From positions 1 through 50,457 of the forward strand of contig PXQN01000014.1 of NCBI GenBank assembly GCA_003021305.1: a stretch of DNA of 50,457 bases, read 5' to 3'. Shown piece after piece: positions 11,323-12,295 of the stretch; the first letter of the stretch is position 1, and each line of letters begins with the position of its first letter. Origin of the DNA: Halobacteriales archaeon QH_10_67_22. GTDB lineage: Archaea; Halobacteriota; Halobacteria; Halobacteriales; Haloarculaceae. The notes below the pieces were generated by a model. It saw nothing but the letters and a program-made list of their open reading frames with translations. It was not told the origin of the DNA and searched no databases. The position numbers and the translations under genes are program-made.

Positions 11323-11418
11323 TCAGATGCGCCTGGGGGCAATGTGTCGCTCGTAGTCCGAGCCACTCCGTAATCGGGTCTGTTTGGCCTTCGCGTGCTG
11401 GATCGTCAGTTGTAACAT
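11323..11418 (-). CDS. 31-residue ORF directly after tRNA-like element 1
   Basis: The minus strand encodes MLQLTIQHAKAKQTRLRSGSDYERHIAPRRI. Its ATG comes one base after the discriminator position of the tRNA-like structure at 11420-11476 (…GGACCTATG). The peptide is basic, unlike most haloarchaeal proteins, with no recognised domain. It converges on the MutS5-like gene with 12 bp between stops. It is listed mainly because a second tRNA-like element is placed in the same way before another small ORF. Confidence 0.25.
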   Translation of the reverse strand: MLQLTIQHAKAKQTRLRSGSDYERHIAPRRI

Positions 11419-11419
11419 A

Positions 11420-11476
11420 GGTCCCGGGCGGGAGTCGAACCCGCGGCGCCGACAGACGCCAGCCACCGTCCGGGAC
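11420..11476 (-). other. tRNA-like structure 1 (T-arm plus acceptor stem, no D-arm)
   Basis: On the minus strand a 7-nt GTCCCGG can pair with CCGGGAC across 42 nt. The 3' half is a perfect tRNA T-arm (GCGGG-TTCGACT-CCCGC) followed by the acceptor strand and one unpaired C. Only 25 nt separate the 5' strand from the T-arm, room for one small hairpin (GGCG with CGCC) but not for both D- and anticodon arms. It is therefore not a standard tRNA. It could be a tRNA-derived element or an old integration fragment of a tRNA 3' end. Confidence 0.5.
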
Positions 11477-11511
11477 GGTCTGGGAGGCTCAGGCTTCCGT
11501 CTCCCCGACCG

Positions 11512-11688
11512 TCAGTACCGTCGCGTCGACCGCGGTGTGACGTCCGTGATCTCGACAGCCTCGACGCTCTCGACGCCGTCGAGGTCGGTGACGACGCTCC
11601 GGACACCGTTTTCCAGGTCGCCGACGGCGTCGCGGGCGACCCAGAGGTCGAGTTCTGCTGTCACCAGGGTCGGGGCATGGACTGCCAT
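11512..11688 (-). CDS. 58-residue ORF directly after tRNA-like element 2, possibly frameshifted
   Basis: The minus strand encodes MAVHAPTLVTAELDLWVARD...VEAVEITDVTPRSTRRY. Codon use is strongly haloarchaeal (GTC, GAC, CTC, GAG), and the pattern of two strands and a helix (ELDLWVA, VRSVVTDLDGVESVEAVEI) resembles a small ferredoxin-like fold. After ITDVT the reading is poor. In another frame the DNA continues AVDATVLTVGETEA and stops after 11489, suggesting a single-base frameshift or natural variation at the C-terminus. The ATG follows a tRNA-like structure by one base. No family is recognised. Confidence 0.45.
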   Translation of the reverse strand: MAVHAPTLVTAELDLWVARDAVGDLENGVRSVVTDLDGVESVEAVEITDVTPRSTRRY

Positions 11689-11689
11689 A

Positions 11690-11744
11690 GGCCCCCGGCG
11701 CGAGTCGAACGCGCACCGCCTCGTGGCGGCCGCCGTGCGGGGGT
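11690..11744 (-). other. tRNA-like structure 2 (T-arm plus acceptor stem, no D-arm)
   Basis: On the minus strand ACCCCCG pairs with CGGGGGC (6 of 7 pairs). The 3' half is a tRNA T-arm GCGCG-TTCGACT-CGCGC followed by the acceptor strand and an unpaired C, then TATG. The 23-nt middle contains a hairpin (CGCC-ACGA-GGCG) and shares the start ACGGCGGCCG with ACGGTGGCTG of element 1. The two structures thus have the same plan and related middles, 213 bp apart and on the same strand. Confidence 0.5.
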
Positions 11745-12295
11745 CGACGGGACAGTGGGGAGACGCCCTCCGGAGATGCCACTGACCGGTCCACCGCTGT
11801 CCGCCGAACTCATCCACCCCGACGGGCGCCAACGAAACTGCCACACCCCCGGAACCGGGAGCCGGAGTGGGTGGAAACGGACGTTCAGTCGTGGGAACTG
11901 TCCAGTCGGTTCGAGAGCCCGGGCTGGACCGTCACGGTCGAGAGGAAGAGCCACGGCGGCTCGACCCGACCGGCGACGGCCCCCTGGGCCTGGCCGCCGG
12001 CGTCACGCGGCGACGGTCGGGTCGATACCTGCGATCCCGGCCGACCAGTCCACCACGCCGGGGCGTTCGAGCCCGAACCCGGCGAACGACGGAGACTCCC
12101 CCGTCGGGAGTGCCGGATACGTGGTGTGTTCGGTCGACATCTGGGATCACCGTTCGCAGATCGGCGAACGTATCACGTTCTCACAGTGGAAACATATTAT
12201 TTCTTTTGCACGTTTGTGAGGCGTTCACACGCGAGGAGCGGCGTGGACGGCGAACCGGACAGTCACTCACGGGATCGGCCGAGGCCGTCGGGCGG
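11745..12295. other. Stretch without a supported gene
   Basis: 550 bp of mostly GC-rich DNA. Frames here are open on both strands but have poor codon use and no recognisable motif. A short AT-rich patch (12184-12214, CATATTATTTCTTTTG) near the helicase 3' end could be a terminator or a promoter. No RNA gene or repeat could be assigned. Confidence 0.5.

Follow-up and report, generated by a model that had tools for sequence, protein, structure and literature searches.

tRNA-like elements directly before small ORFs as candidate processing signals of a haloarchaeal operon

Two tRNA-like elements (TLS1 and TLS2) lie on the minus strand of the window (the whole 50,457-nt stretch of contig PXQN01000014.1 of Halobacteriales archaeon QH_10_67_22 that was analysed), each ending one base before the ATG of a small ORF. 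We interpret them as exapted tRNA-like processing signals (t-elements) that probably punctuate a small-protein operon by predicted cleavage, and we give this interpretation a probability of about 60%. For the broader proposal, i.e. archaeal tRNA punctuation in which a tRNA gene (tRNA-Glu in some lineages) would have become a cis-acting mRNA cutting signal, kept across the order and producing leaderless mRNAs by processing, we see slightly better than even odds. The preliminary description reported two structures on the same strand, and both are found where it placed them; it missed the minus-strand operon to which they belong, whose parts are as follows.

12193..12211, minus strand: BRE/TATA-like promoter, GTGCAAAAGAAATAATATG (a GTGCAAAA-AATTAATAT box is also found about 50-60 nt before ORF0 in relatives)
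12145..12151, minus strand: Shine-Dalgarno-like GGTGATC before ORF0 (matches of 7-8 nt in the closest relatives of the window)
12003..12140, minus strand: ORF0, 45 codons, ending in TVAA and a stop (position, in-frame start and stop conserved)
11744-11690, minus strand: TLS2, tRNA-like element; acceptor 11744-11738 with 11697-11691, T-stem 11714-11710 with 11702-11698, T-loop 11709-11703, N73 the C at 11690
11512..11688, minus strand: ORF1, encoding a small protein with a predicted ferredoxin-like fold; 58 codons in this genome, about 90-105 aa in relatives
11476-11420, minus strand: TLS1, tRNA-like element; acceptor 11476-11470 with 11427-11421, T-stem 11444-11440 with 11432-11428, T-loop 11439-11433, N73 the C at 11420
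11323..11418, minus strand: ORF2, 31-codon basic peptide MLQLTIQHAKAKQTRLRSGSDYERHIAPRRI (in many relatives, too, the second TLS is followed by short Arg-rich ORFs)

Read 5' to 3', TLS2 consists of ACCCCCG, a middle of 23 nt, GCGCG-TTCGACT-CGCGC, CGGGGGC and a C, followed by T and the ATG at 11688, and TLS1 consists of GTCCCGG, a middle of 25 nt, GCGGG-TTCGACT-CCCGC, CCGGGAC and a C, followed by T and the ATG at 11418. This agrees with the preliminary description as to the T-arm (5 bp in each element, with a TTCGACT loop), the one C, the TATG that opens a small ORF, and the middle of 23-25 nt with one hairpin (a short one with a 4-nt loop; a 7-nt anticodon loop is absent). The 7-bp acceptor-like stem described for both is present in TLS1 (GTCCCGG/CCGGGAC), but TLS2 has six pairs (CCCCCG/CGGGGG) plus an A.C mismatch as the outer pair. 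Both elements carry GG in the linker (CACGGCGG or ACGGTGG), and the hairpin is located 3' of this linker.

No tRNA was identified in the window by ARAGORN, nor by the Rfam tRNA model (RF00005) at its gathering score. The folding energies of the two elements are not exceptional as compared to shuffled sequences (z of -1.87 and -0.36), and because folding energy alone is unremarkable in such GC-rich DNA, further tests were needed. The pattern GTTCGANYC-N12/13-TATG has two matches in the 2.5-Mb genome of this archaeon, namely TLS1 and TLS2, and the reversed control pattern has none. Using a covariance model built from relatives, we found only TLS1 and TLS2 in the same genome at E of at most 0.3 (a first look at 150 scored candidates). 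Both structures are confirmed as real, beyond chance, based on their rarity genome-wide and their conservation rather than on folding energy.

Relatives of ORF1 were found in 105 of 146 genomes of Haloarculaceae and in 166 of 282 good Halobacteriales genomes (55 of 79 genera), with order-wide tallies that vary with search sensitivity; named examples include Halosimplex pelagicum, H. carlsbadense and Halapricum hydrolyticum. We fetched 134 loci (126 distinct; they share kinship and are not independent), located ORF1 by HMM, and counted a T-arm when at least 4 of its 5 pairs formed, its loop read TTCRANN and it was at most 60 nt from the ORF1 start. A T-arm precedes ORF1 in 112 of the 126 distinct loci, and the 14 without a recognisable T-arm include divergent homologues and apparent element variants. 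N73 and the ATG are 1 nt apart in 62 elements, 2 nt apart in 30 and 3-4 nt apart in 13 (105 of the 112 at 1-4 nt), and some loci have leaders of more than 4 nt. At N74, 104 of the 112 elements have T, and so do 42 of the 50 in which the T does not belong to a TATG. Most elements have C or G at N73.

Since the 5' strand of the acceptor was picked by complementarity, which is a biased procedure, we swapped partners between loci as a control: 92 of the 112 elements form at least 6 of 7 acceptor pairs with their own partner, whereas partner swapping gives an expectation of about 35 and, over 300 permutations, never more than 49. Among 28 selected elements, 96% of the cells are paired vs 65% in shuffles, and changes on both sides are seen at 10 of 12 pairs (one row of this alignment, L048, has a wrong seventh base, affecting one cell). 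Among 87 distinct model-aligned elements the values are 94% vs 70%, with both-side changes at 11 of 12 pairs, in an alignment that was fitted to the structure and is hence tilted towards pairing. Judging from this covariation, the acceptor stem and the T-arm are under selection as structure across Halobacteriales, which bears out the folded tRNA-like unit proposed in the preliminary description. That description also suggested that integrated elements might have left behind remnants of tRNA 3' ends. Attachment sites are commonly located at such 3' ends, and some of the elements are clearly derived from tRNA-Glu, so degraded tRNA genes or attachment-site duplications could by chance have come to lie before ORFs; however, such remnants would decay, and what we see is the same place occupied in many genera, with 5' and 3' acceptor strands that covary over an order of archaea. 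Because the acceptor strands covary, and the 5' strand is kept with compensatory changes, the attachment-site idea was dropped, and we regard leftovers of either kind as very improbable.

The structures had been called D-armless, and this label is misleading for the family: the missing or shrunken part is the anticodon arm, and the middle arm in many relatives often looks D-arm-like. In many elements GG is found in the loop of a hairpin directly 3' of the acceptor (ATTGG, ACCGG, AGCGG), resembling a D-loop. Of 89 elements, 88 have a GG no further than 16 nt into the middle, a count that says little by itself since shuffled middles already give 78 on average. A few relatives have the full cloverleaf. 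ARAGORN predicted a tRNA ending at most 17 nt from the ORF1 ATG in 14 of the 134 loci, with odd and mixed anticodons (Glu, Asp, Arg, Ser, Val, or undetermined), and a few relatives pass the RF00005 model, among them L169 (G339; 59.4 bits) and L180 (G182; 57.5 bits), both of family f7. In these two loci a full tRNA-Glu(UUC)-like sequence lies directly before ORF1, with 76% (L169) and 73% (L180) identity to tRNA-Glu(UUC), the best among the partial set of tRNAs compared, and both genomes have an ordinary tRNA-Glu(UUC) gene elsewhere as well. Because of these whole tRNA-Glu(UUC)-like sequences, at least some elements are exapted tRNAs; at least those of L169 and L180 derive from a duplicated tRNA-Glu, and the others may share this origin or reflect further recruitments of tRNAs.

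Given that the structure covaries and that some lineages have full tRNA-Glu-like versions, the RNA might itself be the product: the operon would release a stable small RNA that resembles a tRNA, and the ORFs would do no more than surround it. We consider this improbable, as the middle arm, the length of the middle (14-45 nt) and the loops are not conserved except for GG and the T-loop, and the fixed distance to the start codon would be left unexplained. A tmRNA (a tRNA-like structure combined with a short ORF ending in AA) was also considered and rejected: the ORFs have their own starts, and neither the acceptor nor the discriminator is conserved.

Within the unit, only ORF0 has a promoter-like box: of 67 loci, 51 have a 9-nt window with at least 8 A/T before ORF0, and not one has such a window before ORF1. 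The GGTGATC before ORF0 is complementary to the 3' end of archaeal 16S rRNA. In 26 of 28 unique loci the conserved stop of ORF0 (TGA, TAA or TAG) shares its frame with the first ATG past the promoter box. Start, stop and the C-terminal AA of ORF0 are conserved and its middle evolves without visible constraint, for which reason ORF0 could represent a uORF or a leader peptide that is kept throughout the order. ORF1 shows a coding-gene pattern in Halosimplex, with 14, 36 and 138 differences at codon positions 1, 2 and 3, respectively. In the genome of this archaeon it has an out-of-frame internal deletion as compared to relatives (real, or a misassembly), and the ORF1 C-terminal sequence, DATVLTVGETEA followed by a stop, is present in another frame at 11489-11540 on the minus strand. 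In 44 loci a mutS-like gene (named from its sequence alone) is located downstream and has the opposite orientation.

Searches with ORF1 in Pfam and NCBIfam returned no convincing family (one member has a weak SUF_assoc match). The AlphaFold model of the Halosimplex ORF1 protein has a mean pLDDT of 81.8, and the fold class is predicted to be ferredoxin-like; in a PDB fold search, the best match was the exchange-factor domain of eEF1B-alpha (E 7e-4, TM-scores of about 0.4), a match that speaks to fold class only. This weak structural match to an EF-1B exchange factor fits a different explanation, in which the element stays uncut in the 5' untranslated region and, by mimicking a tRNA, would regulate or permit ORF1 translation through a tRNA-binding factor or the ribosome, comparable to the tRNA mimicry of the E. 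coli thrS operator. A tRNA-like structure fixed immediately before the start codon of an ORF that has no visible promoter of its own would be expected for such a mimic as well. Only generic features are kept, however: the anticodon arm, the discriminator and the acceptor sequence vary freely among elements, so no specific synthetase can be made out, and binding does not require the spacing to peak at exactly one base past N73. We therefore judge an uncut mimic unlikely, though less so than a small-RNA product.

A second TLS is found 3' of ORF1 in many Haloarculaceae loci and in one genome of another family (G027). It often has no ATG directly after it (e.g. in L081 and L087), and thus cannot always yield a leaderless message. 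The order is altered in L142 (G003:C4), which has a TLS, a short Arg-rich ORF, a TLS and then ORF1. In L123 (G028:C2), a T-arm with GGGGAGC-C-TATG is found before an unrelated small membrane protein ORF, possibly a second kind of host gene.

Of the options in the preliminary description, tRNA-like leaders that serve as targets of RNase P and RNase Z are the best supported, given stems that covary and an element that abuts start codons. In the processing mechanism that we propose, a single promoter at about 12200 would transcribe ORF0, TLS2, ORF1, TLS1 and ORF2 as one unit. Each TLS would keep what the tRNA end-processing enzymes need (acceptor stem, T-arm, and a GG acting like the D-loop); the parts needed by a synthetase or for reading a codon would be gone, and those for RNase P and tRNase Z retained. 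tRNase Z would cut 3' of the discriminator base (11690 and 11420), and the resulting ORF1 and ORF2 mRNAs would start with U-AUG, one base before the start codon, and could be translated as near-leaderless messages. RNase P would cut at the 5' side of the TLS and so trim the 3' end of the preceding message. In haloarchaea the leaderless type of mRNA predominates. As 72% of the protein-coding transcripts of H. volcanii belong to this type (PMC4983044), cleavage 3' of N73 would produce an ordinary message.

Punctuation is favoured by the covariation of the stems, the narrow ATG spacing, the occurrence of tRNA-Glu-like elements, the presence of just one promoter-like box and the uniqueness of the locus, and tRNase Z-like genes are found in the genome of this archaeon (by matches below the NCBIfam cut-off). 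Against it stand the A.C outer pair of TLS2, the leaders longer than 4 nt, the loci without a T-arm and the broken ORF1 of this genome. Selected H. volcanii tRNA-like elements other than the one beside 5S rRNA were reportedly not cut in vitro in the 2012 work of Hoelzle and colleagues.

Among known systems, the closest is the 5S-rRNA t-element of Haloferax volcanii (Hoelzle 2008, 2012), where the next RNA begins at the 3' edge of the element, as is predicted for the window elements. In H. volcanii, tRNase Z cleaves this natural t-element upstream of 5S rRNA, and artificial t-elements, placed around a crRNA as a tool, are processed by both RNase P and tRNase Z in living cells (PMC4946936, PMC4326828); the same two cuts would apply to the window elements. 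Unlike the 5S t-element, they are predicted to be followed by a protein-coding message that starts 1-2 bases before the AUG, and elements of their type are a conserved part of a single operon across Halobacteriales, where they often come in tandem and most have no anticodon arm. As compared to tRNA (RF00005), the elements share the acceptor stem and a T-arm with the consensus T-loop TTCRANY, with the full cloverleaf of the tRNA-Glu UUC type in the few relatives named above, whereas the window elements lack the anticodon arm and score below gathering, and N73 is mostly C or G with T at N74. In the tRNA punctuation of animal mitochondria, tRNA structures between cistrons likewise mark the cuts (predicted ones, in our case) that free leaderless or near-leaderless mRNAs, and truncated tRNAs are tolerated there as reduced elements are here; the mitochondrial spacers are working tRNAs, whereas the elements described here are mostly not recognisable as such and serve one small archaeal operon. 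We found no report of conserved tRNA-like cutting signals before protein genes in the open-access literature (the list of Hoelzle 2012 may include such elements). As far as we found, tRNA-like cutting signals are already known beside an rRNA, and a conserved set before protein genes is apparently new.

The proposed punctuation would account for small ORFs and tRNA-like calls that gene finders omit or mislabel. The elements also offer natural substrates that represent successive stages of tRNA reduction: a full tRNA-Glu, forms that have lost the anticodon arm, and forms with acceptor and T-arm only. Haloarchaeal leaderless mRNAs are thought to arise from transcription that starts at the start codon. 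If our interpretation is true, a cut one base before the AUG would be a second route to such mRNAs, via RNA processing, and with this operon archaea would have a natural equivalent of the tRNA punctuation seen in mitochondria.
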